Source: Rhodoblastus acidophilus (lineage in GTDB: Bacteria > Pseudomonadota > Alphaproteobacteria > Rhizobiales > Beijerinckiaceae). Taken from it: 52,668 nt of DNA. The notes beneath the pieces are model-generated. The model searched no databases. It was not told the origin of the DNA and was given only the letters and a program-made list of their open reading frames with translations. The DNA is taken from assembly GCF_025961575.1 (NCBI RefSeq), contig NZ_JAOQNX010000034.1, forward strand, positions 1 through 52,668. The letters run 5' to 3'. Below are positions 28,465 to 47,769 of this stretch, piece after piece; positions within the stretch are counted from its first letter, which is position 1; every line of letters begins with the position of its first letter. The position numbers were made by a program, and so were the translations under genes.

Positions 28465-30134
28465 TGCCCTTCGTGCTCCTTCTGCATCTCCTCGACCTTG
28501 CGTTTCACGGCCTCCAGATTGAACGAAGCCGGGGCTTGCATGGGCGGGAAATCGACGGCCGTCTCGGCCAGCGCCGCGACCCTCTGCTGCACCAGGACAA
28601 AGCGCCAGAACTCCCGGGCGTAAAAATCATTCATGTAGCCGCCGCCCAGGTTGTTGATCGTTTCGCCGCGAATAGACGGCGTGCGCTCGAACGGGTCCTG
28701 CCGCAGATTGATGATGGTCGGCATGTCCGTCGTCGTCTTCTCGCCAGGCCAGCCATAAGGCTGTTGATAGAACTGGTATTTGAAGTCGTCGATGCGGATC
28801 GCGCCGAGGTTCGGGCCGCCGAAATAGAAGATTTCGTGGCGCTGCGACGGTCCCTCGCCGAGCAGGAGCTTCATCTGGTTGTAGCCATCCAGATGGTTCT
28901 TGTAGCTCTGCCCGCCCAGTGTCGCGCCTTTTAGCAACTGTTCGGTGATGTTCGGATTGCCGGCTGCGTCAGCAAGCGTCGGCAGCCAGTCCAGACCGGA
29001 GAAAATGCCGTTCTCGATCTTCCCGGGCTTGACCTTGCCGGGCCAGCGGATGATCGCCGGAACCCGAAAACCGCCTTCGAACACCGTTCCCTTGGTCGCG
29101 CGAAATGGCGTCATGCCGCCGTCGGGCCAGGTGAAGACTTCGGCGCCATTGTCGGTGGTGAAGATGACGATGGTGTTTTTCGCCTCGCCGATGTCGTCGA
29201 GATGTTGCAGCAGCGCGCCGACGGAATCGTCGAGTTGCGCCATGCCGGCCTCCTCGACATTGTAATTGGTCTTAAAGTTCATCATCGCCTGGTATTTCGG
29301 CGGCAGATAGGTGAACACGTGCATGCGCGTCGTGTTGTGCCAGATGAAGAAGGGCTTGCCGTCTTTCTTGGCCTTGTCCATGAAGCCGTTGGTGTGCTTG
29401 ACCAGCACCTCGTCGAAGGTCTGCATGTCATATTTGGCGGGCCGTCCCTCCTGCCAGTTCTGCACGTTCTTCATGTTGGGGAAGGGCGGCAGCGGGCCTT
29501 CGTCCTCTATTCTCTGCCTGCCGACCCTGCCCCAGCGCGGCTGCACAGTGGCGTCGTCCACGTCGGTCGCATAGGAATGGACGAGGTTGCGCGGGCCGTA
29601 CTTGTCGATCCACTCCTGCGGGTAGTCGAACCAATAGGGGTCCGACATCGCGTCGAGATGGTACAGATACCCGAAGAACTCGTCGAAGCCGTGCACCGTC
29701 GGCAAATATTTGTTGAGGTCGCCGAGATGGTTCTTGCCGAACTGCCCGGTTTCGTAGCCGAGAGATTTCAGGACCGTCGCCAGCGTCACGGCCTGGTCGG
29801 GAATGCCGACGTCCGCGCCGGCCTGGCCGACCGTTGTGAGTCCGGTGCGCAGCGGGAGTTCGCCGGTGATGAAATTGGCGCGCCCGGCGGTGCAACTCGC
29901 CTCGGCGTAATAATCGGTGAAACGCATGCCTTCCGACGCCAATCTGTCGAGGTTCGGCGTCTTGCCGGACATGATCCCCTGATGATAGGCGCCGATGTTG
30001 AACCATCCGACATCGTCGCCCATGATGACGAGGATGTTCGGCGGCTTGGACGCTTGCGCGACGGCGGGAGCGATGTAGCAAGCAAAGCTTATGCAAACGG
30101 CCAGTATCGCAGTAATGTTGCGGTGAAACGACAT
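28461..30134 (-). CDS. Secreted arylsulfatase-family sulfatase
   Basis: A 557-aa sulfatase with a signal peptide (NITAILAVCISFACYIAPAVAQ). The metal site begins with NILVIMGDDVGWFN (D40, D41). The catalytic Cys, converted to formylglycine in this family, is C81 in the motif CTAGR (the CxPSR/CxAxR type), followed by GELPLRTGL. Other family blocks are GYETGQFGKNHLGD, IFTTDNGAE and TKGTVFEGGFRVPAIIRWPG. The ATG at 30134 is preferred: GGGGGA lies about 8 bases upstream, and the upstream 19-residue extension lacks a signal-like start. It forms a two-gene operon with the octaheme cytochrome. The natural sulfate ester is unknown. The promoter is probably in the AT-rich stretch 30200-30290. Confidence 0.93.
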   Translation of the reverse strand: MSFHRNITAILAVCISFACYIAPAVAQASKPPNILVIMGDDVGWFNIGAYHQGIMSGKTPNLDRLASEGMRFTDYYAEASCTAGRANFITGELPLRTGLTTVGQAGADVGIPDQAVTLATVLKSLGYETGQFGKNHLGDLNKYLPTVHGFDEFFGYLYHLDAMSDPYWFDYPQEWIDKYGPRNLVHSYATDVDDATVQPRWGRVGRQRIEDEGPLPPFPNMKNVQNWQEGRPAKYDMQTFDEVLVKHTNGFMDKAKKDGKPFFIWHNTTRMHVFTYLPPKYQAMMNFKTNYNVEEAGMAQLDDSVGALLQHLDDIGEAKNTIVIFTTDNGAEVFTWPDGGMTPFRATKGTVFEGGFRVPAIIRWPGKVKPGKIENGIFSGLDWLPTLADAAGNPNITEQLLKGATLGGQSYKNHLDGYNQMKLLLGEGPSQRHEIFYFGGPNLGAIRIDDFKYQFYQQPYGWPGEKTTTDMPTIINLRQDPFERTPSIRGETINNLGGGYMNDFYAREFWRFVLVQQRVAALAETAVDFPPMQAPASFNLEAVKRKVEEMQKEHEGQ

Positions 30135-30305
30135 ACGAATTCCCCCGGATGCTTGGGAGCGCTTGCTCTTTTGAGCATTATGTTTGTTCATTCGGTCCGA
30201 ATCTGCTAATGATTTTTTCGTGATGTTTATTCATGCTACGCTATAGTCGACGAGATATAATTTAAGCGTCAATAGTATACGTTCCGGCGCGGCGGTAAAT
30301 TTAAG

Positions 30306-31175: not shown

Positions 31176-31562
31176 AGTGCTTCGGCAGCTCGATTAACTC
31201 GAAACACAGGTCTCGGCGCTTCGGCGTTTATGTTCCGCAGACGTTTTGACCGGAGCTTGGAACCGACGCCATTTTGAGGAGGTCGTCGCGCCGAGCTCGA
31301 ACGAAGCGACCGGCAACGAGAGCCTGTGTCCTTATACGACGTCACGGCCTTGCATGATGCTGGCCGCTAAGCGCACCATGGCGCGGATCGCAGTTCAAGC
31401 AATGCGCCACGTGCCAGGGCTCCGCAGGTGCACGAAAAATCATCTTATAGAACAGAATAATGCCGAAAACGCACCTTGAGGTTGCAGTTAGAGATTGGCT
31501 AAAACGACGCTTGGTTCTGGTTGGGGGTGGCTCAAGCTTCAGCCCAAGTTCAAGGGTGCGAG
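31176..31562. other. Intergenic stretch before the CheB-CheR fusion
   Basis: About 390 bases between the pseudogene and the giant kinase. No supported gene is seen. The stretch 31440-31500 is AT-richer than its surroundings and may hold the promoter. Confidence 0.45.
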
Positions 31563-34500
31563 ATGTCAAAGAATGGCAAGACGCCTGGGCCGACGCCGAA
31601 ACCGCGCAAATCTTCGTCGCGGAAAAGAGCCGAGGTCGCATCCAGCGCATTAGGATCTTCCGAACGCGCTCTCTTGCCGTCCATCATCGCCATCGGCGCA
31701 AGCGCCGGCGGACTCGAAGCTCTGGAAAAATTCTTCGATAACGTTCCGGTCGATACCGGAATGGCGATCGTCGTGATCCAGCATCTTGATCCCAATTTTC
31801 GCAGCATGATGGACGAGTTGCTCGGCCGGCATGCCAAGATTCCGATCCACAAGGTCGTCGATCAGATGCTGATCGAGCCCAACGCTATTTACCTCAATCC
31901 CGCCCGGCAGGACATGTCCATCGACAAGGGGCGGTTTCGCCTTCATCCTTCGGAACGCACGGGCGGCTTGACCCTTCCGATCAATTGCTTTTTCGAGTCG
32001 GCCGCCTGCGAATATGGCGAGCGCGCTGTAGCGGTGATCCTGTCCGGCACCGGATCAGACGGCGCCAAGGGCTGCGAGGCGATCAAGGAAGCGGGCGGAC
32101 GCGTCTTCGTCCAGGATCCGGCAAGCGCGAAATTTGGTTCGATGCCGTCGTCCGTAATCGCCAGAAAAATCGCCGACGGCGTCGATTTGCCGGAAAAGCT
32201 GCCGTCGCTCATTACTCAGCCAAGGCAGTCCGATATTTCTCAAAAACACCTTCCCGCCGGCCGGGAAGCGAACCAAGATCCATTGGCGGCCATATTTTCC
32301 ACCGTCAAGGCGCGGCACGACATCGATTTTAGTGTTTACAAAACGGCCACAATGGAGCGGCGAATTCGTCGGCGAATGGGTCTCGTCAATGCGTCCAGTC
32401 TGTCGGATTACGCGGATCTTTTGGCCGTCAGTCGCGAGGAAACCACCACCCTTCTAAAGGACCTGCTGCTGGATGTGACAGCCTTTTTCCGCGACCCGGA
32501 GGCCTTCAAGGTCCTGTCGGAAAAAGTGATCCTTCCCCTTGTCGAAGCCATGTCTCCGGAGCGGGAAACCAGGGTCTGGGTGGCTGGATGCTCCTCCGGA
32601 GAAGAAGCCTATTCGCTGGTGATTTGTTTCGCCGAATGCGCCCGGGCCCTAGGCAAGAGTTTGAACGTCAAGATTCTCGCTACCGATATTCATCAAAGCT
32701 CTTTGGCGGTGGGGTCAGCCGGTCTTTATCCCGAGGCGTCATTTGGCTCCATGCCGCCGGAAATTGTCGAACGCTACTTTGACCGCGAAGGAAAGCAGTT
32801 GCGGGTCAAGAAGGCGGTTCGCCGATTTATCGTTTTTAGCCAGCACAATATCTTGAAAGACCCACCGTTCACACGCATAGATTTACTGACATGTCGCAAC
32901 GTACTTATTTATTTTAATGAAGAAGCGCAACAATATGCGTTGACCTTGTTCCATTTTGCGCTCTGGCGCGGCGGTGTCATCTTTCTCGGTCCGAGTGAAA
33001 CGCTTGGCGCCATCGCAAGTGAGTTCAAGGTCATCAACCAGAAAATGCGGCTTTTCTCGAAGACGCGCGATCTGCACCTGCTGGCGCCCGGCGCGATCAC
33101 GCTGCACACCGGCCGCGCGAGCTCCTCAGCTGTGGGCCGAGGCGGGGACGCATACCATGGCCCGCTCGCTTCGTCGCTCAACAGCCGGCATATCATGCGC
33201 GTCACAAATGGCGCGTTGAAGGAAATGTTGAGTCGGTATGCTCCGCCGGGTTTCCTCCTGTCGCGCGACGGCGCTCTGATGCATGTCTTCGGCAACGCCG
33301 CCAAATATATCACGATAAAGCGTGGCGTCTTCAGCCAACAGATCGTCGACTTGCTGCCACGGGAGTTGGCCCTGGTGGTCGCCAGCGGGTTGGGTAGCAA
33401 TATTCAAGAAAAATTTTCTAAATTCCGGCGGAGCATCCGCGGGCACGCCGAAAACGGCGAAACCTTGCAAACCGTGACGATTGAAGCGCTCCCAGATCCG
33501 GAGAGCGATGCGGACTATCTGCTAATGACCATTGAGGAGGCGCCGTCGTCGCCGCATGTGCGCAAATCGGAGCCGGAACAATCGCTGCAAATGTTCGGCG
33601 ATCCGCTCGATTTTCGCCGCAGAAACGAGGAGTTGATCGCCGATTTGCAGGCGACTGAGGAGAATCTGCAAGCGGCGATCGAGGAACTCGCCACCAGCAA
33701 CGAGGAGCTTCAATCGACAAATGAAGAACTCATGGCGTCGAATGAGGAGTTGCAAAGTACCAATGAGGAGCTGCATTCCGTCAATGAGGAGCTTTACACA
33801 GTAAGCACGGAGCATCAGCAAAAGATTGATGAATTGATTCAGCTGTCGCTCGACATAGAGCACCTTCTGAAGGCGACTGAGATCGGGACTATTTTCCTCG
33901 ACGAGAAGCTTTATGTCCGGCGCTTCACCCCGGCCGTCGCCCAGGCTTTCAACCTGATTCCGCAGGATGTCGGACGGCCTATTTCGCATATCACCTTGCG
34001 GTTTGAGAACGTCGATTTCTATGCCCTTCTCGATGAGGTCAACCAGACACGCGTGATGCGGGAGGAAGAAGTCTCGGTCGCCGGCCATTCTTACCTGCTC
34101 CGCATTCTGCCTTATCGCGCCGATGGAGCCGACCTCCTGGGCACTGTCGTCACGCTGATCGATGTAGACGAGCGGAAAAAGGCGCAGGCGCGGGTTCGCG
34201 AACTCGATGAAAGGCAACAGCAAGTTCTGTCGGCGCTGCGCGAGTCCATCCTGAGTTGGGATGCGCGCAGTGAAAAGATCCTGTTCTGCAACGACGTCTT
34301 TGCGCATATGACGGCGAAGCGCAAAGAGGAAATCATCGGCGCCGATTTGCGCTCGGTGCTGGACGCCGAAAGCTATACCGAGAAAAAGAACGCCGTTGCG
34401 ATTCTCGCACGATATCAGATGGCGAGCATGCGCACGCGCGTGGCGTCTCCGACCGGGGTCATAACCCACCGTCACATCAACATCAGCTGCATTCATAACG

Positions 34501-36554
34501 ACCGCGGCGAGATCGTGAGCTACATCGCCTGCGGTCGAGACGTTTCCGAAGAGACGCGCTACGCCGAAGCATTGAAGGAGCTTTCCGCGCTGGAATCGCA
34601 TATAGACGAACCGATCGAGACCGCAGCGGGCGCCGTTCTGGACATAGGCGCGAGGTTTCTTGGGCTCGAACAGGGCTTGTTATTGCAAATTGACACCGCC
34701 GGCGAGCGGATCGTCAGCCACGCCGGACTTGGAGGCCTCGATCACGCGGTCGGCTCGATCATTAAACTCCCGCAGAGCTTGCGTAATCCTGGGGTTGGTT
34801 CCTACGGTGCCAAATCTCTGGTCAAGGAAGGCGATGCGCCGACCTTCGACAAGCTGGTGGAGGCGCCAAACAACGGCCCGACGAGTTATATCGGCAAGCC
34901 CGTGCGCTGTTCCGGCGCCCTCTACGGGATGGTCTGCTTCTTGTCCGACAGGCCTCCGCTATACGGCCCGTTCACCGACGTCCAACGCGGTTTCATCGAG
35001 CATCTGGCGCAATGGATCGGCCTGAAAATAGAGGCGCGCCGCCAGCATGAGGCTTTGCTGCAAAGCGAAGCGGAATTGCGTCTGATCTTTGACAATGTGC
35101 CCGCCAATATCTGGCGCATGGATTCGCAACATCGGGTGATGCGCGCCAACGCAGCGGCGGCGCGGGCTGTGCCGTCTTCGCTCAATGCGGCGGACGGCGA
35201 GACGATCGAGGCGCAAATGCAGCAGCTCGATGCGCAATGGCTGGAGCATGATGACGAAATCATGCGCTCGGGCCAGCCGCTTTATGGAATCGTCTCGCAC
35301 AGTTCGGGTCCAGGAAACCAACGGCGCTGGACATCGACCGACAAAATTCCCTACGTGGACCCGGCGACCGACGAGCGTTCGATCCTTGTGGTGGCTTCCG
35401 ACATAACGGCGCTAAAGCAGCGCGAAACCGCTTTGGAACAGCTCAACCTCGAGGTCGAAGCAGGCCGCAAGCGGTTTGAACATCTTTACCAGCAGACACC
35501 GGTGATGATGTGTTCGTTTGCGTCCGATGGACTGTTGACCGAAGCAAGCGATCTATGGCTTGAAAAGACGGGGTTCGCGCGCGACGAGGTTCTCGGACGC
35601 CCCTTCGGAGATTTCCTGGACGAGGACTCCCGCCGTCAGGTGAATACGGTCTTTCTGCCGGCCTTGTGGGGCGACGGCGTCAGCGGACCCATCCCCTTGC
35701 GGGTCGTCTCCAAGTGCGATCAGATTGTCGAAGTCGAGCTTTCGGCGTTTCTCGACAAAGCACGTCTCCCACAGGACTTCTGTCTCGCCGTTCTCATCGA
35801 TGTCACCGAGCGAAATAACGCCATCCGGTCTCAGGAGCAGGCCAATCGCGAATTGGCAACCGCCAATGATGGATTGAAAAAATTCGCACATGTCGCGTCG
35901 CACGATCTTCAGGAGCCGTTGCGCAAGATCAGCCAATTTGGCGATATGATCATGACCGAGTATCAACATTTCCTGCCGGAAGACGGGAAGTTTTTCGTGC
36001 AAGTGATGCGTGACTCCGCAGAAAGAATGCGCCTCCTGGTGGGAGACATTTTAAGCTTTTCGAAATCTGTCAATGCATCGCTGGAACGACGGGAGGTGGA
36101 TCTTGCGGATGTCATCCGAGACCTGATTATCGAACTCGAAGTCGCCATTCGCGATGCTCAAGCTCAAATCGAATGCGTGGATGTGCCGATGATCATCGGC
36201 GACCGCACCAGCATCCAGCAATTGTTCCGTAACCTCCTGACAAACAGTCTCAAATACCGCCGCCCAAACGTAGCGCCGCGCATTTTAATCAGTTGCGCCG
36301 GCGATCCCGCGGGAGCAATGGTTATCAGCGTGGCCGACAATGGTTGCGGTTTTGACTCACGCTATGAGAAGACAATATTCGAAGCCTTTACTCGCCTTCA
36401 TACCGCGAGCCAAATCGAGGGAAGCGGGATCGGGCTCGCTATATGCAAATCGGTTTGTGATCGGCACAGCTGGACAATTTCGGTAAAGACTGTGGCAAAT
36501 CAAGGCACTGAATTCTTAATCGCCATTCCGGCAATTGATGTCGTCGAGAAATAG
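31563..36554 (+). CDS. CheB-CheR-PAS-GAF-histidine kinase fusion
   Basis: About 1663 aa. The CheB methylesterase domain has its catalytic triad: Ser in IGASAGGLEAL (near 44), His in VIQHLDPNF, Asp in LSGTGSDGAKG. The CheR domain follows, with DVTAFFRDPEAF, the SAM-binding motif AGCSSGEEAYSL (near 340), ILATDIHQSSL and CRNVLIYF. A long coiled coil of repeated NEELQSTNEEL-type units spans about 689-760. Then come PAS domains, a GAF-like domain (near 1030-1175), further PAS domains, HisKA (SHDLQEPLRKISQFGD, near 1446) and ATPase (ADNGCGFD near 1591, GSGIGLAICK). ATG at 31563 (MSKNGK) is favoured over the start 14 codons earlier. A CheY-like gene follows 4 bases after the stop. It probably links methylation chemistry to a phosphorelay. 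Confidence 0.95.
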   Translation: MSKNGKTPGPTPKPRKSSSRKRAEVASSALGSSERALLPSIIAIGASAGGLEALEKFFDNVPVDTGMAIVVIQHLDPNFRSMMDELLGRHAKIPIHKVVDQMLIEPNAIYLNPARQDMSIDKGRFRLHPSERTGGLTLPINCFFESAACEYGERAVAVILSGTGSDGAKGCEAIKEAGGRVFVQDPASAKFGSMPSSVIARKIADGVDLPEKLPSLITQPRQSDISQKHLPAGREANQDPLAAIFSTVKARHDIDFSVYKTATMERRIRRRMGLVNASSLSDYADLLAVSREETTTLLKDLLLDVTAFFRDPEAFKVLSEKVILPLVEAMSPERETRVWVAGCSSGEEAYSLVICFAECARALGKSLNVKILATDIHQSSLAVGSAGLYPEASFGSMPPEIVERYFDREGKQLRVKKAVRRFIVFSQHNILKDPPFTRIDLLTCRNVLIYFNEEAQQYALTLFHFALWRGGVIFLGPSETLGAIASEFKVINQKMRLFSKTRDLHLLAPGAITLHTGRASSSAVGRGGDAYHGPLASSLNSRHIMRVTNGALKEMLSRYAPPGFLLSRDGALMHVFGNAAKYITIKRGVFSQQIVDLLPRELALVVASGLGSNIQEKFSKFRRSIRGHAENGETLQTVTIEALPDPESDADYLLMTIEEAPSSPHVRKSEPEQSLQMFGDPLDFRRRNEELIADLQATEENLQAAIEELATSNEELQSTNEELMASNEELQSTNEELHSVNEELYTVSTEHQQKIDELIQLSLDIEHLLKATEIGTIFLDEKLYVRRFTPAVAQAFNLIPQDVGRPISHITLRFENVDFYALLDEVNQTRVMREEEVSVAGHSYLLRILPYRADGADLLGTVVTLIDVDERKKAQARVRELDERQQQVLSALRESILSWDARSEKILFCNDVFAHMTAKRKEEIIGADLRSVLDAESYTEKKNAVAILARYQMASMRTRVASPTGVITHRHINISCIHNDRGEIVSYIACGRDVSEETRYAEALKELSALESHIDEPIETAAGAVLDIGARFLGLEQGLLLQIDTAGERIVSHAGLGGLDHAVGSIIKLPQSLRNPGVGSYGAKSLVKEGDAPTFDKLVEAPNNGPTSYIGKPVRCSGALYGMVCFLSDRPPLYGPFTDVQRGFIEHLAQWIGLKIEARRQHEALLQSEAELRLIFDNVPANIWRMDSQHRVMRANAAAARAVPSSLNAADGETIEAQMQQLDAQWLEHDDEIMRSGQPLYGIVSHSSGPGNQRRWTSTDKIPYVDPATDERSILVVASDITALKQRETALEQLNLEVEAGRKRFEHLYQQTPVMMCSFASDGLLTEASDLWLEKTGFARDEVLGRPFGDFLDEDSRRQVNTVFLPALWGDGVSGPIPLRVVSKCDQIVEVELSAFLDKARLPQDFCLAVLIDVTERNNAIRSQEQANRELATANDGLKKFAHVASHDLQEPLRKISQFGDMIMTEYQHFLPEDGKFFVQVMRDSAERMRLLVGDILSFSKSVNASLERREVDLADVIRDLIIELEVAIRDAQAQIECVDVPMIIGDRTSIQQLFRNLLTNSLKYRRPNVAPRILISCAGDPAGAMVISVADNGCGFDSRYEKTIFEAFTRLHTASQIEGSGIGLAICKSVCDRHSWTISVKTVANQGTEFLIAIPAIDVVEK

Positions 36555-36558
36555 GCCC

Positions 36559-37008
36559 ATGTCTGAAAACTCCCCAATCATTCTGATGATCGATGATGAT
36601 GAGCATGACGTATTCCTCGCAAAACGCATCTTTGCGAAACATTCAAAAGTAGTGGAATTATATCATTCCGCAGATGCAGAGGCCATTTTCGACGACGTCG
36701 AGAAGATAAAAGTCAAAAAAAGCGATGAAACACACGTTCCGGATTTCATCCTTTTAGATATAAACATGCCAAAGGTGAGTGGTCTTTTGTTGTTGCGGAG
36801 AATAAAAGATAGTCCTGTTTACAGGAAAATACCGATTATTGTTTTCACGACTTCAGACGTGCAGGAACATGTCGATTTGGCATATGCTATCGGCGCGTCG
36901 GCCTATATGGTGAAACCAACCGCGATTGCAGCCTATGAAACGTTTGTAAAATCTTTTCTTGATTTCTGGTGCGGATCTATCAGACGTCCCGATTTGACGG
37001 TGACATGA
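36559..37008 (+). CDS. CheY/Rcp1-like single-domain response regulator
   Basis: A 149-aa receiver without an output domain: LMIDDDEHDV acidic pocket, acceptor Asp in FILLDINMPKVSG, VFTTSD switch, and lysine in YMVKPTA. The ATG at 36559 is 4 bases after the CheB-CheR-kinase stop, so it is the natural phospho-partner of that kinase. Base composition is visibly more AT-rich (runs of A and T, AAA/ATA codons) than its neighbours, as is the last 500 bases of the kinase gene, which could mark a different origin or relaxed codon use. It is convergent with the c-di-GMP operon, 22 bases apart. Confidence 0.93.
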   Translation: MSENSPIILMIDDDEHDVFLAKRIFAKHSKVVELYHSADAEAIFDDVEKIKVKKSDETHVPDFILLDINMPKVSGLLLLRRIKDSPVYRKIPIIVFTTSDVQEHVDLAYAIGASAYMVKPTAIAAYETFVKSFLDFWCGSIRRPDLTVT

Positions 37009-37030: not shown

Positions 37031-39175
37031 TCACCCGTGCCGACGCTCTCCAGCGCGTTCCGCCCTGTCGACACGCTCGATCAGTTCCTCCTCCCAAAGC
37101 GGTTTGTCGAAAAGATAGCCTTGAGCGAGGTCGCAGCCGTAGAGCGTCAGAAAACTGGCCTGCGCCTGTGTCTCGACGCCTTCGGCAAGCGCCTTCACCT
37201 TCAGTGAATGCGCGAGGCGTATGACGGTTGAAGTGATCTCCATCCCGGTGGTGTCACCGGGGATGTCGGCGATGAAACTCCGGTCGATCTTCAGTTTGTC
37301 TATCGGGAAGCGCTTCAAATAGGCAAGCGAGGAATGACCGGTGCCAAAATCGTCGATGGCGATGCGAACCCCGAGCGCCTTCAGGATTTTCAGCTTTTCT
37401 TCCGCTCCGTCGCCCTGCCGCATAAGCGCGGTCTCGGTAAGTTCAAGCTCCAGGCATTCCGGCGGAAGCCCGGTTTCGGCAAGCACGGCGCCCACGCGCT
37501 CGCATAGGTCCGCGCAGTCGAACTGGCGCGGCGATAGGTTGACCGCGATCACGTCGATGTCGCGCCCCGCGTCGCGCCACGCCTTCATCCGTGTGCAGGC
37601 TTCGCGAAGCACCCATTCGCCGAGTTGAACAATCAGGCCAGTCTCCTCAGCAAGCGGAATGAACTTCATCGGCGCAACGAGGCCGGCAGAGGAACGCCAC
37701 CGCACCAGGGCTTCGACGCCGATCAGGCGTTCGTCAGGCAAGGCCACGAGCGGCTGAAATTGCAATACGAACTCATTCCGTTCGAGACCTCGGCGCAGGC
37801 CGGTTTCGAACTGGAGGCGTTCGCTGGCCGCAAGCGTCAAGGTTGAGGAATAGAGTTGTACCGCCGCACCGCCGCTTCTTTTTGCGCGATAGAGAGCGGC
37901 ATCGGCATGCTGGATGAGCGCGTCGGCGGTGTCGCCGTCGGCGGGGAACAGGGCGACGCCGATGCTGAGGCCGATAAATATCTCCTGCTCGCCGAAAAGC
38001 AAATAGGGTTCCGCCATCTGATCGATCAGCCGCTGGGCGAAGGCGGCCACTTCCAAGGGGTCTTGCGCGTCTTCGATACATGCAATGAATTCATCGCCGC
38101 CTTCTCGCGCCAACGTATCGGAAACACGCATACTGGCCTTGAGCCTTTCGGCGACCTTGATAAGCAATCGGTCGCCAATCGGGTGGCCAAGACTGTCGTT
38201 GACGGTTTTGAAACGGTCGAGATCTATGAACAGCACCGCGCCGCCTGAATTATTTTGCACCGACCGCGCAATCGCATGCTCAATCCGCGACCGAAGAAGC
38301 AACCGATTGGGGAGGCCCGTCAACGGATCATGATGCGCGAGATATTCCAGCCGCGTTTCCGATTGCTTCAGTTTGGTGATATCGGTGAAAACACCCACGT
38401 AATTGATGGCGGCGCCCTTGTTGTCGAGCACCGCGCTGATCGTCAGCCATTGCGGATAGATATCGCCACATTTGCGGCGATTCCAGATTTCTCCCTGCCA
38501 GTAGCCAGCTTCATGAATGGTGCGCCACATGGTCTGGTAGAAATCGCGTCCATGGCGGCCAGACTGCAGCATGCGGATATGGCGTCCGCCGAGTTCATCG
38601 TCGTCGTAGCCGGTGATGGTCCTGAATGCCGGATTGACCACAATGATTAATCCATCGCGATCAGTGACGACGACCCCCTCGTGTGTGCTGGTGAAAACGG
38701 CCGCGGCGAGCCGCAAATCGGTTTCGTGACGCTTGCGTTCGGTGATGTCGACATGAGTTCCGGCAAGGCGCACCATCTTGTGGTCAGCGCCGTAGACTGG
38801 AAAGCCTCGCGCAAGAATGTCGAGCCAGCGCCCATCCTTGTGGCGCATTTTGATTTCAAGTTCGTAATTGGCCCGGGTGCCCGCCCCCAGTTCAGCAATC
38901 TGCTCTTCAATGGCTCGATAGGACTCGGGTGTCGTCAGGCGGAGGATTTCGTGGAAGCTGTTTTGAATCTCGTCCTCGAAATAACCGAGCATCGCCTTGT
39001 AGCGCGCGGAGAAATAGACGTCGCTAACGGCAAGATCGCCATCGAAACGCAGGTCCCACAGACCAACATTGGCTCCCCGCATGGCGAGACGGAAACGGTC
39101 CTCTTCGGCTTGAAGCGGGTTTTCGACCGCCTTGCGCCCAGAAACCTCCCCGGACTTTTTCGGTGAGATATTCAT
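37031..39175 (-). CDS. PAS-PAS-GGDEF-EAL cyclic-di-GMP enzyme
   Basis: A 714-aa soluble protein: PAS domains at about 26-150 and 155-275, GGDEF at about 285-440 (REGGDEF, with an RxxD inhibitory site RVSD five residues before), and EAL at about 460-705 (GVEALVRW, NLSPRQF, ELTETAL, DDFGTGHSSL, LKIDRSF, EGVET, AQGY). Both active sites look complete, so it may be bifunctional. Its ATG overlaps the stop of the upstream diguanylate cyclase gene by four bases (39172-39175). It is the last gene in an operon started by a cobalamin-binding protein. Confidence 0.94.
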   Translation of the reverse strand: MNISPKKSGEVSGRKAVENPLQAEEDRFRLAMRGANVGLWDLRFDGDLAVSDVYFSARYKAMLGYFEDEIQNSFHEILRLTTPESYRAIEEQIAELGAGTRANYELEIKMRHKDGRWLDILARGFPVYGADHKMVRLAGTHVDITERKRHETDLRLAAAVFTSTHEGVVVTDRDGLIIVVNPAFRTITGYDDDELGGRHIRMLQSGRHGRDFYQTMWRTIHEAGYWQGEIWNRRKCGDIYPQWLTISAVLDNKGAAINYVGVFTDITKLKQSETRLEYLAHHDPLTGLPNRLLLRSRIEHAIARSVQNNSGGAVLFIDLDRFKTVNDSLGHPIGDRLLIKVAERLKASMRVSDTLAREGGDEFIACIEDAQDPLEVAAFAQRLIDQMAEPYLLFGEQEIFIGLSIGVALFPADGDTADALIQHADAALYRAKRSGGAAVQLYSSTLTLAASERLQFETGLRRGLERNEFVLQFQPLVALPDERLIGVEALVRWRSSAGLVAPMKFIPLAEETGLIVQLGEWVLREACTRMKAWRDAGRDIDVIAVNLSPRQFDCADLCERVGAVLAETGLPPECLELELTETALMRQGDGAEEKLKILKALGVRIAIDDFGTGHSSLAYLKRFPIDKLKIDRSFIADIPGDTTGMEITSTVIRLAHSLKVKALAEGVETQAQASFLTLYGCDLAQGYLFDKPLWEEELIERVDRAERAGERRHG

Positions 39176-40149
39176 GGCGTTGTGCTCCGGGCGGCGGTCG
39201 CAGACGAGGCGGGAACGGCTGGGCTAAAATGCGCAATCACCTTGTTCCTCCCTTGCGCCTTGGCTTGGTAGAGCGCTTGGTCGGCACGGCGGATCAGCGC
39301 GGGTCCCTGTTCGCGCGGCCCCAGTTCGGCCACGCCGACGCTCACCGTGACGGGGTGGGTAATCGGATCGATCCGCGTCGCCGCGAGCGACGCCCTGAAC
39401 CGATCGGCGACCAGTATCGCATCGTCCAGTTCGGTGTGGGGCATCAGCACGATGAACTCTTCGCCGCCAGAGCGGACCGCCACGTCGCTCGCGCGCGTGT
39501 GCCGCCGCAAGCAGTCGCCGAATGCGGCGAGCACGGCGTCGCCGGCTTCATGGCCGTAAACATCGTTCACGCGCTTGAAATGATCGAGATCGGCGACGAA
39601 TGCGCACAATTTCGAGCCCGTGCGTTCGGCGCGCTTGACTTCGGCCGGCAGGGCTTCGTCAAGGCGTCGGCGATTGCCAACGCCTGTGAGCGGATCGGTC
39701 AAGGAAAGGGCCAGGATCTCCGCCTCGCGCTGCCGCAGCCGGAGGTTGGCCTGCGCGAGTTCGCGCTGCGTGCTGGCATAATCGCTGTTCAGCTCCAGCA
39801 CGGTTTGGTTGAGGCGGTCCAGATCGTCGACGTCATATTCCGCCAGCAAGCGGATTTCGCCGTTCACGCGCCACACGCGTCCGCGCAGGGATTGCGTCCG
39901 CTTCATCGGATCGCCGAGGGTCAAGGGGCCGCTGTAGATGTCTCCATCGTCGCCGCCATTCAACTGAGCCAGCGTCGCAAAACTCGGCTGCGCGAACAGC
40001 GCCGTGGCCCGTGCCCCGATTACCTCCGGCGCGCACAGTTCAAGCAGCCTCTGGAAACCGGCGTTCGCCTCGATCACGCGACCGTCGGGGGCCAGCGTCG
40101 CTGCCGCAACGGCGAGCAAGTGTTGGAAATCACTGGAGTAACTAGGCAC
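39172..40149 (-). CDS. PAS-GGDEF diguanylate cyclase
   Basis: A 325-aa soluble cyclase: a PAS-like N-terminal domain (LAPDGRVIEANAGFQRLLEL), a coiled-coil linker (about 130-165), and GGDEF with LTDPLTGVGNRRRLDEALP, RSGGEEF and an RxxD product-inhibition site (RASD) five residues before it. The start is placed at GTG 40149: GGAGG lies 9 bases upstream and the codon overlaps the stop of the cobalamin-protein gene by eight bases. The in-frame start at 40221 would lie deep inside that gene. All this points to tight co-translation with the cobalamin-binding protein, which is probably its input. Confidence 0.92.
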   Translation of the reverse strand: MPSYSSDFQHLLAVAAATLAPDGRVIEANAGFQRLLELCAPEVIGARATALFAQPSFATLAQLNGGDDGDIYSGPLTLGDPMKRTQSLRGRVWRVNGEIRLLAEYDVDDLDRLNQTVLELNSDYASTQRELAQANLRLRQREAEILALSLTDPLTGVGNRRRLDEALPAEVKRAERTGSKLCAFVADLDHFKRVNDVYGHEAGDAVLAAFGDCLRRHTRASDVAVRSGGEEFIVLMPHTELDDAILVADRFRASLAATRIDPITHPVTVSVGVAELGPREQGPALIRRADQALYQAKAQGRNKVIAHFSPAVPASSATAARSTTP

Positions 40150-41245
40150 TGGCTCTCGCCTCCACCAACTGGTTGCCATAGGCGACCGCCGCGGCCGCTG
40201 TGGGGATAAAGGCGTCGGCATGCGATGCGCCAGCGAGTGAAGCGAATGTTCTTATCGCCAGGCCGCCGATGATGACGCGAGGACGGGACGCGCCGAGGCG
40301 GCTGTCGAGCTTCGCGACGATGGTCCTGACCGAACACAGGTGTTCAGGAAAGGACACCGACAGACCGACAAGGTCGGGCGACGACTCGACAATCTGTTCG
40401 ACCAGCGAGGCGGTGGGCATGTTCGCGCCGAGGTACTGAACCTCCCATCCGTCGAGTTGGAATGCGTCGGACACCATGTTCAGCCCGACTGCGTGGATAT
40501 TGCCTTCGACGCATGCGAGCAGTACTTTTTTGTCCAACATCGAGGGCGGAGACGATCGCAGCAAACCTACGGTCATCACGGATTGCGCGATCGCAGTCGC
40601 CATATGCTCCTGAGCGACCGTCACCTGGTTCAACTGCCACATGTCCCCGATCTGGTGGAGGGCCGGCGCGATGACATATTGCTCCAGCTCGACCAGGTTA
40701 CGTCCCTCGGAGAACCAGTGGTCCACGAACGAAAATGCGTCCTTGCGCCGTCCGGCCAGCAGCGCCGTCAGGAACGCGGCCCGCTCGTCGCGATATCCGG
40801 GTTCGGATTGGTTCGCATGAGACGTATTGGCCGCCTCGTGAAACTCGGTCTGCGCCGCTCGCAGCGCGTCGGCGACAGCGCGACCTTCCCTCCCTTTCAT
40901 CTGTCGGGTGAAGAACGCCGCCAACCCGTCAAGCGACGTCGCTAAATCGTCCACGGGCAAGCCGCGGGCGAGCCAGACGCTCCTCGACCATACGAGATAG
41001 TCGACCATCGGCTGCAACAGACCGAATTCCATTACGGGGCGAAGCACCGCGAGGCAGATGACAATGTGCTCGCGACAGGCTTCTTGGCGGCAGGCCTCCT
41101 GCGAGCGCGTCGAGAGCGCCTCTGGCGTTGCCGTCGACGAGGGGTAGATCAGCTTCGTCACACTATCCGCCGCCTCGAGCTGCAACGATTGGAATCTTTG
41201 CAACCCGTCGGGTTCCAGCGTAGTCAGCCTGGCATGCGCGGCCAT
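40142..41245 (-). CDS. Cobalamin-binding regulator with CarH-like W-x9-EH motif
   Basis: A 367-aa soluble protein. Residues 1-150 are helical and unrecognised. Residues 155-235 match the B12-binding helical cap (GDMWQLNQVTVAQEHMATAI), with W203, nine residues, then E213-H214: the motif by which CarH holds adenosylcobalamin and senses light. The Rossmann-type B12 fold follows (VLLACVEGNIHAVGLNMVSD), with lower-ligand His251 in xHxxG, GANMPTASLV, GLSVSFPEH and IIGGLAI. There is no MerR or other DNA-binding domain. It is first in an operon with two c-di-GMP enzymes, so it may control them through protein contact. Light or cobalamin sensing is inferred from the motif. Confidence 0.88.
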   Translation of the reverse strand: MAAHARLTTLEPDGLQRFQSLQLEAADSVTKLIYPSSTATPEALSTRSQEACRQEACREHIVICLAVLRPVMEFGLLQPMVDYLVWSRSVWLARGLPVDDLATSLDGLAAFFTRQMKGREGRAVADALRAAQTEFHEAANTSHANQSEPGYRDERAAFLTALLAGRRKDAFSFVDHWFSEGRNLVELEQYVIAPALHQIGDMWQLNQVTVAQEHMATAIAQSVMTVGLLRSSPPSMLDKKVLLACVEGNIHAVGLNMVSDAFQLDGWEVQYLGANMPTASLVEQIVESSPDLVGLSVSFPEHLCSVRTIVAKLDSRLGASRPRVIIGGLAIRTFASLAGASHADAFIPTAAAAVAYGNQLVEARASA

Positions 41246-41696: not shown

Positions 41697-41910
41697 GTGC
41701 GGCTTTCCGACGGCGACATCCTGCATGCAGACAAAGGCTGCGGCGCCGAACTGCTTCTAGCGCCCCTCTATCGCAACAGCAACGCCATTGATCGCATGTT
41801 TTGCCGTCTCAAAGACTTCCGTCGCATGGCCACACGATACGACCGTAAGGCCGTCAACTTCCTCGCCACCGTCTGCTTCGCGGCGACCAGTCAGCTACTG
41901 GGTATCCCTC
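41697..41910 (+). mobile_element. IS5-family transposase scrap
   Basis: The frame reads GDILHADKGCGAELLLAPLY, then RNSNAIDRMFCRLKDFRRMA and TRYDRKAVNFLATVCFAAT, matching the C-terminal part of the IS5 transposase at 22000-22536 but with an internal deletion after HADKG and loss of the 3' terminus. It is a decayed copy of a related element, in the opposite orientation. Confidence 0.85.
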
Positions 41911-42945
41911 CGGTGAAGCACGCGGGCGGCCCGGCGGAGTTGGAGGATGACGCTCAGGCTGCTTCGGCTTGTTTGCTCTGGGGCCGCCAGTTCCATGGGA
42001 CGAACCAGAGCTTGAAGTGCAGAGGAAGAATCATCCGATCCATGCTCCAGAGCGAAGGCGGCATCGCGCGCCAGATGCGCCAGGCATGTCTGGTGGCGCT
42101 GGCCATGCGATTGCTGAGCCGAATAGCGTTCCGAGATCCACACCTGGGGTCTGTGGCCCCCCATCGTCTCTTTCACGACGCGAGCGGCGCGGGAATAATC
42201 GGGCTGATGCACCACGGCGTCCTTGCAGTGGAAGACCCAATGATAAGCGTTCGCTCCCTCAATCCGGACGCCGGTCTCGTCGCTGGCCACTTCGCGCGCG
42301 GCGCGAAGGACCGCCTTGGCCTTTTCAACCTCGATTTTGAAACGCGCGTGGGTGCGGATGAACATGTTACCCAGCGCGCCCTCGCTGACGCAAAGCCCGA
42401 ACGCGTCGCGGAAAATGAGGCGCAGCCGCTCATAGGACAGCGCCTGGAAACCCTTATAATGCATGGCGAGCGCATGGATGCGCGGCCCGAAAGGCGTTGT
42501 GGTGGCGACCGCCGGCGCCGGACCTTTCGCCTCAGAGCCGCAATGCTGGCAGCGGCAGGCGAAGCGCCGGTGGCGGACGACATGGGGGTGACCGGCGGAA
42601 TGTCGATCTCATCGTATTCGCCGATTAATTCCAGGTCGGCGTCCGCCGACACGGCGCCGCCGCAGAACGCGCAATGCGTTGGCCGGTGATCGCGGATTTC
42701 GTCGGGATTGTCGGCGAGCCGGCGATTGTGAGGCTCATGGCCGGGCTTCGCCCCGCCAGGCCGAGAATTTTCACGCTTCTCTTTCCTGTCGGTCGAAAGG
42801 CGGCTTCGACGAAGTGCGCGAGGTTTTGTCGGGCCGCTGAAGTTGCAGCACCAAGTCGATCAACTGCTCTTTGAAATGGACCCGCGAAGCGGGACCGCTT
42901 GATGCGATTTCGTAATTGGAAGCCAGCCGCTCCGGATTTTTTTTA

Positions 42946-43872
42946 TCACGCAGCCAAAGGCTTTGTCTGCTGCTGTGGGTGTGGGCATGTGGTCAACGCG
43001 GCAGCGTTGTCCATCATGTCCACAGCCTTCTCCGCCGCCATGCCTTCGTGCCAGACCACCATCGGCGGCCGGTGGCCGAGGGATTGGTGAAGGCGGCGGT
43101 TGTTGTAGAATTCGATCCAATTGCCGAGGCCGGCCTTGGCTTCGAGTCCATCGGCGTAGCCTTTGAGGTAGAAGTCCTCGTGCTTCAGCGAACGCCACAG
43201 CCGCTCGACGAAGACGTTGTCCATCCACCGGCCGCGGCCGTCCATCGAGATTTTGATCTCCGCCGCCTTCAGGGCGCCGGTGAAGGCGGCGCTCGTGAAC
43301 TGCGAGCCCTGATCGGTGTTGAAAATCTCCGGCTTGCCGAAGCGCGCCAGCGCGTCTTCCAGCGCCGCCACGCAAAAGGATGCGTCCGCCGTATTGGAGA
43401 TGCGCCAGGACAGCACCGCGCGCGTCGCCCAGTCGATGATCGCGACGAGGTAGAGAAAGCCGCGACCGATCGGCAGATAGGTTATATCGGCCGCCCAGAC
43501 GTGGTTGGGCCGCTCGATTTTCAGGTCGCGCAGAAGATAGGGGTATATCTTGTGCCCCGGCGCCGGCTTGCTGGTGTTCGGCTTCGGCCCCAGCGCCGCG
43601 ATCCCCATCTGGCGCATCAACCGCTGCACGCGCTTGCGGTTGATCGTCTCGCCTTCCTCCTTCAGCATTCGCGCGATCCGGCGCGAGCCGAGGAAGGGCC
43701 AGGACGTGTACATCTCGTCGATGCGCCGCATCAGCGCGAGGTCGTTGTCGTTGGCCGGTTTTTTCGGCCGATAGACGCCGGAGCGCGCAACACCCAACAA
43801 GGCGCATTGCCGGCGGACAGACAGCTTCTCGTCGGCGCGGTCAAGCAGGCCTCGACGGTCCGGCGCGCTCAT
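42946..43872 (-). CDS. IS3-family transposase OrfB
   Basis: A 308-aa DDE integrase-type protein: HTH_21 segment ([31 protein letters not shown]), catalytic Asp in [13 protein letters not shown], second Asp in [11 protein letters not shown], and Glu in [19 protein letters not shown]. Its start overlaps the end of OrfA by four bases; a frameshifted OrfAB fusion is the usual active form. Confidence 0.93.
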
Positions 43873-44156
43873 CTTCCGGACCTCTTGGCTAAAAAATCGC
43901 GCTCTACAGTGAGTTGGCCGATTTTGGCGTGGAGTTTCTCGATCTCCTTCTCCCGCGTCGCCTCTGCGTCCACGCCGACGCTGGCGTCAAACGCCCGCGC
44001 CGCATTTTCCAGTAACTGCTTCTTCCAGGCGTAAATCTGGTTCGGGTGAACTTCATAGCGCTGCGCCAGGTCCGCAATCGTCGCCTGCTCGCGCATCGCC
44101 TCCAAGGCGATCTTCGCCTTCAACGCCCCGTCAATCTTGCGTCTCGTCTTCTTCAT
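43869..44156 (-). CDS. IS3-family transposase OrfA
   Basis: A 95-aa helix-turn-helix protein beginning [20 protein letters not shown], with the DNA-binding segment [20 protein letters not shown] and a leucine-zipper-like tail ([20 protein letters not shown]). It binds the element ends and is the N-terminal part of the fused transposase. Confidence 0.92.
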
Positions 44157-44531
44157 CGTCCGCTCCGTTTATCAAACAGAACGGCTCGTTTCCAACTTAA
44201 CCGCCGGTCCCAAAAACGGGGTCCATTTCACTTTGCTGAGCTGCTGCAAACCACTGCGATCCATGCCGACATGGATTCAGAGTTTCTCAAGCCTGGCAAG
44301 AGCCCCGCAAACGCCTGCGCCTTGCTACGTCAAAGCGCAAAAGAGGCCTGGGTAATTACCATTCCCAAATGGCGGCGGGGCGGGTGTGAGGCTAAAGAAG
44401 GGGCTTTGACACATCGCAAGGCAAGGCGACGTTACGGCAATTACTGACTAGATGCGGCTTGCATCACGACGACCGCACGCTAACTGGCCCGCTTCATCCC
44501 GCTCGATTGATAAACGCTGAGGATAACGGAA

Positions 44532-44642
44532 ATGGAGCTGAGGCGATGGCGCGATGAACCAACTGCACATGCTTTAGAGTTCGCCTTGATCGCCTGCCTG
44601 CTCGCCGTGATCGCCCTATCATTGCTCGCGGCGCCGGGCTAG
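44532..44642 (+). CDS. Possible Flp-pilin-like small membrane peptide, 36 aa
   Basis: ATG at 44532 to TAG at 44642. After a charged start (MELRRWRDEP) the frame reads ALEFALIACLLAVIALSLLAA. The DE...A.EF.LIA..LAV pattern resembles the membrane segment of Flp/Fap pilins, including the Glu at the fifth position of the mature pilin. It is shorter than normal Flp pilins (about 55 aa) and has no pilus genes nearby, so it may be a fragment or chance resemblance. Confidence 0.35.
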   Translation: MELRRWRDEPTAHALEFALIACLLAVIALSLLAAPG

Positions 44643-44686
44643 AATTTGAGGTCTAGCACAGCGCCGTCCTGCGAACGTTTCGAGGC

Positions 44687-44875
44687 TCAAGCAGCGCGTT
44701 TTGTCTCGCCGGCCTCCTGGAGGATGAGGAGCTTTTCTAAGTTGGCCTTGGTGACCCAGAGCCGGGCGAAGGATTCAGCGTGTTGTTCGTCTCGCGGTGC
44801 AGTCGCATATCCCTGGTTGAATTCTGCGATGGCGTAAAGCACCTCTATAAGGGCTCGTTGCAAGTGCTCATTCAT
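44687..44875 (-). CDS. Small hypothetical protein, 62 aa
   Basis: A helical cytosolic protein (NEHLQRALIEVLYAIAEFNQ, ESFARLWVTKANLEKLLILQ). No known motif, signal or membrane segment. The codon composition is plausible and the ORF fills an otherwise empty interval between mobile elements. No strong ribosome site; function unknown. Confidence 0.5.
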   Translation of the reverse strand: MNEHLQRALIEVLYAIAEFNQGYATAPRDEQHAESFARLWVTKANLEKLLILQEAGETKRAA

Positions 44876-45304
44876 GACGAATGCCTGACTTCGGCTGGTG
44901 TTGACTGAACCCTACAGAACACCGCAGGGCAGGAACTGAAGCGTTGTTCAACTGGCGTGAAAACCTAGCTGAACCGGCGCGTTGGCCAAGGTTCAAGGGG
45001 TTAATCCGTCGTTTAACGTGTCGATCGGCCGCAGACAGCCGCCATCGGTAGCCCAAATGGGCCTTACCAGCGTGTGGGTGATCTGCACGCGCGACGGCTG
45101 CAAAAGATCGGTCGCGCTCGAATGGGACAAGCTCGGCCTTCACGACGATCTGCCGTTCTCCGAAATTGGGGGCGGTTGTAGCGCGACAATCTGGGTGAGA
45201 GGCGCGCGACAATCAAAGTGAGAATCCGTAGTCGCGGCGACGCTGATCATTGCGGCGTTGATTGACGCGCGCAAGCGGATTTTGTCGCTGATTGTCGCGG
45301 CGCG

Positions 45305-47769
<2,465 letters not shown>

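Follow-up and report, generated by a model that had tools for sequence, protein, structure and literature searches.

The window that we analyzed, positions 1 to 52,668 of a Rhodoblastus acidophilus contig (NZ_JAOQNX010000034.1; 52,668 nucleotides in all), carries three overlapping genes that encode a cobalamin-binding protein (gene 1), a diguanylate cyclase (DGC; gene 2) and a PAS-PAS-GGDEF-EAL protein (gene 3). Computation placed gene 1 in the photocobilin family, found in it the complete signature of light-responsive cobalamin-binding domains (CBDs), and recovered a two-gene order of sensor and output partner that recurs in related loci, a linker motif that the partners share, and intact catalytic motifs in the enzymes. 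The conserved unit is these two genes, sensor and partner, and a layout in which the output partner is a separate gene may be what is new here. We consider it probable that gene 1 is a light-switched photocobilin that controls the DGC by contact, with cyclic di-GMP (c-di-GMP) as the output. As a preliminary description of this DNA had stated, genes 1 and 2 overlap by 8 bases (GTGCCTAG) and genes 2 and 3 by 4 bases (ATGA), and gene 2 starts within the end of gene 1, at a GTG (position 40149) with GGAGG; this GGAGG lies 9 bases 5′ of the GTG. Ribosome-binding-like sites were present at the operon junctions, and from the ATGA overlap gene 3 is probably in the same transcript as genes 1 and 2.

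Pfam recognized B12-binding_2 and B12-binding over residues ~152–362 of gene 1. The preliminary description had called this protein a cobalamin sensor and had missed a second domain, which sets it apart from a generic sensor of this kind: PDB profile matches identified residues ~10–115 as a phycobiliprotein/photocobilin-like globin domain of the globin/biliverdin type. When gene 1 alone was compared with PDB sequences, the top matches were the photocobilins 8J2W/8J2X (5.9e-21), with significance over the CBD only. A five-member profile matched two stretches each in 8J2W and 8J2Y, the B12 domain and the globin region, the latter being N-terminal in gene 1 and C-terminal in these photocobilins, and a 26-row profile of the N-terminal domain (A7) matched 8J2W (SasPcob; 6.4e-10), allophycocyanin (5.1e-8) and 8J2Y (AbPcob; 9.2e-8). 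Because the single sequence, the five-member profile and A7 all matched photocobilins, we classify gene 1, by sequence, as a photocobilin-type protein of globin–CBD order, its B12 domain C-terminal. (Manual thinning left 55 rows in A4, 35 in A5, 29 in A6 and 26 in A7, the alignments behind the structure and profile work.) The AlphaFold2 (AF2) model of gene 1 had a predicted local distance difference test score (pLDDT) of 92.4 and a predicted template-modeling score of 0.88, and its best Foldseek match was the CBD of a Chloracidobacterium MerR protein (8JBS/8JBT), followed by 8J2W, on which it superimposed at 1.7 Å across 207 columns, a length that corresponds to the CBD; the match was limited to about this domain because the domain order is reversed between the two proteins.

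Two other identities for gene 1 were rejected. It is not a CarH/LitR protein, as it has no MerR-type DNA-binding domain (Pfam found only B12 domains, and the N terminus is a globin) and scored 45.9 bits against the NCBIfam CarH model, for which the cut-off is 400. Nor is it a corrinoid protein of a methyltransferase system (MtbC/MtgC/MtaC), for which the NCBIfam models gave at most 45.8 bits against cut-offs of 215–450; its neighbor is a GGDEF gene, with no methyltransferase adjacent. Thermus CarH and the Chloracidobacterium CBD do resemble gene 1 in their CBD fold, W-x9-EH motif and axial His (CarH numbering from PMC11796333), whereas gene 1 lacks their MerR/helix-turn-helix domain and would have an enzymatic output, encoded by another gene.

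The motifs GxxW, EH, GxxH and GxxxP have been proposed as the signature of light-responsive CBDs (PMC11796333), and gene 1 carries all four: G200-D-M-W203, E213-H214, G248-N-I-H251 and G273-xxx-P277. Across 89 aligned rows (88 related loci, described below, and the window), G200, W203, E213, H214 and H251 were invariant, with the reservation that the pattern used to find the relatives itself demanded G..W, which makes those two columns partly selected. The axial His, the Trp and the EH pair were each kept in 89/89 rows, P277 in 83/89 and the Gly of GxxH in 63/89. The globin domain departs from the family at one position. His60, in the stretch Cys57-Arg-Glu-His60, aligns with the biliverdin-binding Asp270 of SasPcob and lies 26 residues before Trp86; the residue at this spacing was Asp in 69 of 73 rows, the exceptions being the window (His), Ilyobacter L012 (Asn), and L037 and L066 (both Tyr). 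We base this register on a five-row alignment and the constant 26-residue spacing to Trp86, with a numbering offset of 6 derived from His108 and Trp61; MAFFT alignments in which the family Asp fell close to window residue 55 and Cys57–His60 became an insertion were not used as evidence. The Asp was kept in three of the six GGDEF-paired sensors and in 66 of the 67 others (Fisher p = 0.0012), which is weak evidence for a loss linked to GGDEF partners because the rows are related; the GGDEF-paired sensors without it are those of L012, L037 and the window. AbDPcob, which also has His at this position, binds biliverdin weakly (PMC10979010). Because of His60 we predict weak biliverdin binding for gene 1 as well, and sensing of green light dominated by adenosylcobalamin (AdoCbl).

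The gene 1–gene 2 arrangement is not due to chance, because it was found again in related loci. We scanned a genome collection with one pattern and kept the best 80 of 213 relatives, which are not a random sample; with six plasmid records, five loci from genome samples and the window copy they made 92, of which four were left out (L001, which is the window; L021 and L095, with partners identical to those of L014 and L015; and L086, with the linker of L016). In the remaining 88 loci, the next open reading frame (ORF) on the same strand after the sensor was a histidine kinase in 53, a GGDEF protein in six and a PP2C protein in two (61 in total), whereas a recognized output gene just upstream of the sensor was seen in 2/88 (L013 and L076). 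Fifty-seven of the 61 partners began no more than 50 bases from the sensor end, overlaps included, and 28 overlapped the sensor, 14 of them by exactly 4 bases, counts that depend on our choice of start (for each partner, the first start codon at which the overlap with the sensor did not exceed 40 bases). An annotated pair in Ilyobacter (L012) consists of a cobalamin-dependent protein followed by a GGDEF protein, with a 20-base overlap. The preliminary description had taken the tight coupling of the three genes to suggest post-translational control of c-di-GMP; sensor–output coupling does recur, and such control is the best reading for the DGC, but the GGDEF-EAL gene is local.

What the partners share beyond their position is a helix. 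Most full-length partners have a PAS-like N terminus that closes in a helix with the consensus E.S.LNNEL...QRELAK.N.EL..LN, and its core of ~32 residues (LNNEL..QRELAKKN.EL) is common to partners of different output types. Gene 2 follows this plan: Pfam found GGDEF (142.8 bits) and a sub-threshold PAS, and the AF2 model (pLDDT 80.9) shows a PAS-like domain followed by one long helix, residues 107–150, that holds the linker motif. A hidden Markov model (HMM) of the linker, built only from 41 unique kinase partners, was searched against 4,408 sequences: the partners, the remaining ORFs of the loci, controls from the window and the partners reversed. The HMM matched 54/54 kinase partners (training rows included), the window DGC together with 6/6 other GGDEF partners, one of the two PP2C partners, and partners in L028, L034, L046, L051, L066 and L080. 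Otherwise, matches at E<0.01 came only from five ORFs located one gene farther on in these operons, four of them recognized kinases (L064, L042, L084, L077) and one a cut, kinase-like ORF (L017), such that every match at this threshold among the 4,408 sequences sat in a sensor-partner operon. At E<0.01 there was no match in the window GGDEF-EAL protein, its hybrid kinase, its other kinase or the reversed partners, nor in the PP2C partner of L073 or the neighbors in L053, L054, L059 and L061. A comparison of the partner N terminus with PDB sequences gave three matches, all spurious-looking. After the same linker helix, L051 (6855-7229) and L066 (6857-7210) have a zinc-ribbon-like tail (CASCKK...CPxC) and no enzyme, and in L034, L046 and L080 (Adhaeribacter) the partner stops after its N-terminal domain and linker helix, with no output domain.

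These distributions bear on whether the two genes are merely co-expressed, with the sensor acting elsewhere (for example, on gene 3 or a promoter) and the helix being an ordinary signaling coiled coil. AF2 indeed gives a plain long helix, of a kind often found between a PAS and an output domain. The motif, however, is largely confined to these operons, as the search of the 4,408 sequences indicated. In 24 sensor-carrying genomes, picked from the loci because they bear the sensor (12 had supplied profile rows), 25 of 27 helix matches shared their 3-kb stretch with a B12 gene, and the other two were a second partner in a SAR324 operon and a partial match (L135). In 299 sampled genomes of the phylum, the genome-scale profile A6 gave just three helix matches, two of them in known carriers: one was beside a B12 gene, one was on a fragment in the known carrier G605, and one was borderline (7.9e-4), with no B12 match in its stretch. 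We therefore hold co-expression alone to be improbable. The partial match (G1234:C22:110851-110916) has half the linker motif in a 388-residue frame, with no B12 gene in the 3 kb fetched.

Published photocobilins supply a precedent for control by contact. The preliminary description knew of no well-described light pathway of this layout from B12 to c-di-GMP; such a link is in fact published for AbDPcob, a photocobilin–DGC fusion from an Acidimicrobiaceae bacterium, whose apparent turnover light raises more than tenfold, and the isolated cyclase, AbDGC, was activated in trans by light-state AbPcob and by holo SasPcob (the latter in vitro), with evidence for contact (PMC10979010). AbDPcob (8J2Y being its sensor part) resembles the window in coupling a globin-plus-CBD sensor with the light signature to a DGC, and resembles gene 1 in having His in place of the biliverdin-binding Asp. 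It differs in that sensor and DGC form one polypeptide with the CBD before the globin, whereas the window has two genes, the globin before the CBD, a PAS-like domain and a linker helix in the DGC, and a phosphodiesterase gene in addition. SasPcob (Saccharothrix syringae; 8J2W/8J2X) is, like gene 1, a stand-alone globin-plus-CBD protein with a closely matching CBD, but its domain order is reversed, Asp270 is kept, and its predicted partners are STAS, SpoIIE and PP2C proteins (PMC10979010). The photocobilins characterized in that paper are one fusion and one stand-alone protein of function called less clear, and it already noted that the B12 domain is N-terminal in some groups and C-terminal in others. 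Photoglobin-B12 proteins are also among the closest known systems to gene 1. In BBAG-2 and Myxococcales clusters, a globin and a B12-binding protein are neighboring genes, as in the split forms of L014, L017 and L077; the work on these globins dealt with bilin reductase and heme oxygenase genes as well, and the parts of PMC10151467 cited here do not mention kinase or GGDEF partners. A literature search by titles and the beginnings of abstracts, which did not extend to the neighborhood supplements of PMC10979010 or the photoglobin paper, returned nothing on these operons or the helix.

In the model that we favor, we infer AdoCbl binding, the light trigger, the physical contact, the sign of the effect and the role of gene 3. 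In the dark, AdoCbl would hold the gene 1 sensor in one, probably dimeric, state, and photolysis of the Co–C bond would change its shape or oligomeric state. The photolysed sensor would then contact the DGC through the PAS-like domain and linker helix, and this contact would alter DGC activity, by activation or inhibition, and with it the synthesis of c-di-GMP. The gene 3 EAL protein would probably remove c-di-GMP, sharpening or resetting the signal. The arrangement in the window agrees with a natural, two-gene form of the in-trans control seen with photocobilins.

Several observations weigh against this model. With AdoCbl only and no biliverdin, SasPcob activates AbDGC in the dark and appears inhibitory in the light (PMC10979010), and we entertain both signs of effect for the DGC because of this opposite behavior. 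The biliverdin-binding Asp is absent from gene 1, as it is from AbDPcob, and two signature columns were, as noted, partly selected. The window pair is divergent: the linker of its DGC was found at E 0.0021 only, and profile A6 matched neither the window DGC nor its own genome, which is why we call its helix divergent. The gene is rare near its host: at 1e-30 it was found in 1 of 149 genomes of the family (its own genome included), and at 1e-25 in 1 of 397 from the order, 2 of 385 from the class and 5 of 398 from the phylum. Finally, 27 of the 88 loci had no recognized output as the next gene. These 27 include cut contigs (L014, L015, L028, L036), loci with an extra gene between sensor and kinase (L017, L053, L061, L064, L077, L084), partners without known output (L034, L046, L080), a LuxR-type partner (L098; GerE 77 bits), a STAS neighbor (L013) and loci in which no partner was evident (L008, L009, L085 and L087 among them). 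In L053 (6581-7933) and L061 (6228-7910), a heme oxygenase domain protein directly follows a stand-alone CBD gene and precedes a kinase ORF, an order that would suit local production of biliverdin.

A further difficulty is where the sensor occurs. Carriers, by record title, include Ilyobacter, Halanaerobium, Lokiarchaeota, Methanobacteriaceae and Cloacimonadota; several are metagenome-assembled genomes (MAGs), in which the placement of a contig can be wrong. Many such carriers appear to be anaerobes or sediment organisms, for which reason light may not be the general signal, and this suggests that some family members sense cobalamin or redox state. The module might then respond to B12 status or oxygen/redox instead of light, depending on which form of cobalamin is bound or on the adenosyl group being lost in another way, with the same contact to the DGC. 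The lifestyles of the carriers (general knowledge applied to titles) and the lost Asp in the window, L012, L037 and L066 agree with this alternative, which we nevertheless judge rather unlikely, given the Trp, EH and axial His kept in 89/89 rows (G..W in part by selection), the heme oxygenase domain that separates the CBD from the kinase in L053 and L061, the phototrophy-type genes in the host genome, and the light responses of the closest studied relatives (PMC10979010).

We return to the preferred reading, that of a light-switched sensor, with the question of how far the module extends. In gene 3, Pfam found PAS_3, PAS_9, GGDEF and EAL (242.5 bits), and the motifs GGDEF, EALVRW, NLSPRQF, ELTE, DDFGTGHSS and AEGVE looked intact, which makes it a probable c-di-GMP phosphodiesterase. 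Because gene 2 has both the active-site GGEEF and the RxxD I-site (RASDVAVRSGGEEF) and gene 3 the usual EAL motifs, both enzymes look functional. The conserved three-gene order that the preliminary description proposed to look for did not hold among the fetched B12 loci: only the order of genes 1 and 2 recurred, and the sole other EAL gene lay ~4 kb beyond the B12 gene (L050). The GGDEF partner was followed instead by an MscS channel (L035), a bile-acid symporter (L037), a radical SAM gene (L065 and L089), an NADH:flavin oxidoreductase (L012) or, in L096, an opposite-strand gene without a Pfam match. Gene 3 has long homologues at 66–68% DNA identity, both elsewhere in its own genome and in six of the ten congeners compared. 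In the ten congeners gene 1 had one DNA match, of 33 bases, and gene 2 only short matches in the GGDEF core. From these matches we infer that genes 1 and 2 were acquired and were joined to a gene 3 from resident stock.

An acquired pair could also be a fragment without working function, left by chance beside insertion sequences. The lack of any longer gene 1 match in the congeners is in keeping with this, as are the transposase genes upstream of the operon (41895-46135: an IS66 fragment, an rve-type, IS3-like transposase and IstB of IS21), which suggest a mobile region. Against decay, all three frames are open and carry their catalytic and cofactor motifs, ribosome-binding-like sites stand at the junctions and gene 1 was modeled at pLDDT 92, and we regard it as very improbable.

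The partners also differ in output among close relatives. The PAS-like region of the window DGC matched that of the LuxR-type partner L098 at 35% identity over 120 columns (E 9e-13), and near relatives thus carry different outputs. On a tree of 88 rows, with 13 labels assigned by hand and L013 left out, the GGDEF label needed six changes. Repeated swapping of outputs is only suggested, because well-supported branches force one change and the window branch is long. L014, L021, L017 and L077 are split forms: before the partner they have separate globin-like and CBD ORFs, which overlap or adjoin each other. Of these, L014, L017 and L077 fall in the window's part of the tree, on long branches.

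It is possible, if short of probable, that these operons form a plug-and-play photocobilin family of bacteria and archaea (the latter by MAG titles), in which the sensor docks on the linker helix, outputs are swapped (kinase, GGDEF, PP2C, LuxR-type, zinc-ribbon-like or none), dark anaerobes read cobalamin or redox, and the window version is connected to c-di-GMP synthesis as well as degradation. Through the recurrent neighbor and helix, many stand-alone sensors would gain an identified partner and a docking site open to testing, natural split photocobilin–DGC pairs among them. If borne out, such a family could provide kinases, cyclases and phosphatases with a light (or B12/redox) input that is non-covalent and exchangeable, and it would raise the question of what an AdoCbl sensor does in dark anaerobes.

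Table 1. Coordinates of the sensor operon and of the features discussed within it.
Feature	Position	Strand	Basis
Gene 1, photocobilin-type sensor, 367 aa	40142..41245	-	Pfam, PDB profiles, AF2, Foldseek, light signature
Cys57-Arg-Glu-His60 of globin domain	41066..41077	-	Alignments, PDB profile
Gene 2, DGC partner, 325 aa	39172..40149, GTG start	-	Pfam, motifs, AF2
Divergent partner linker helix in DGC (LELNSDYASTQRELAQANLRLRQREAEI)	39715..39798	-	Kinase-partner HMM, E 0.0021
Gene 3, PAS-PAS-GGDEF-EAL protein, 714 aa	37031..39175	-	Pfam, motifs

In keeping with the model that we favor, the host genome contained one cobalamin adenosyltransferase, one heme oxygenase above cut-off (28 bits) and genes of bacteriochlorophyll type. 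On the heme oxygenase contig (C1; L107:1942-9359), ORFs of the Oxidored_nitro, CobN/Mg-chelatase plus DUF3479 and NifH types were found, which we take to be bacteriochlorophyll-type BchN, BchH and BchL; three of the ten ORFs scanned near the heme oxygenase had a Pfam match, and the other seven may be wrong frames. Two of the six other B12 matches in this genome adjoined URO-D methyltransferase genes, and two more of the six were B12-binding proteins encoded on the heme oxygenase contig; a small B12-binding protein lies near the bacteriochlorophyll-type genes. Elsewhere in the window, a CheB-CheR-PAS-GAF-HisKA hybrid kinase (31521-37008) overlaps a response regulator and is convergent with the operon, and a multihaem cytochrome with TPR adjoins a sulfatase gene (26146-30191).

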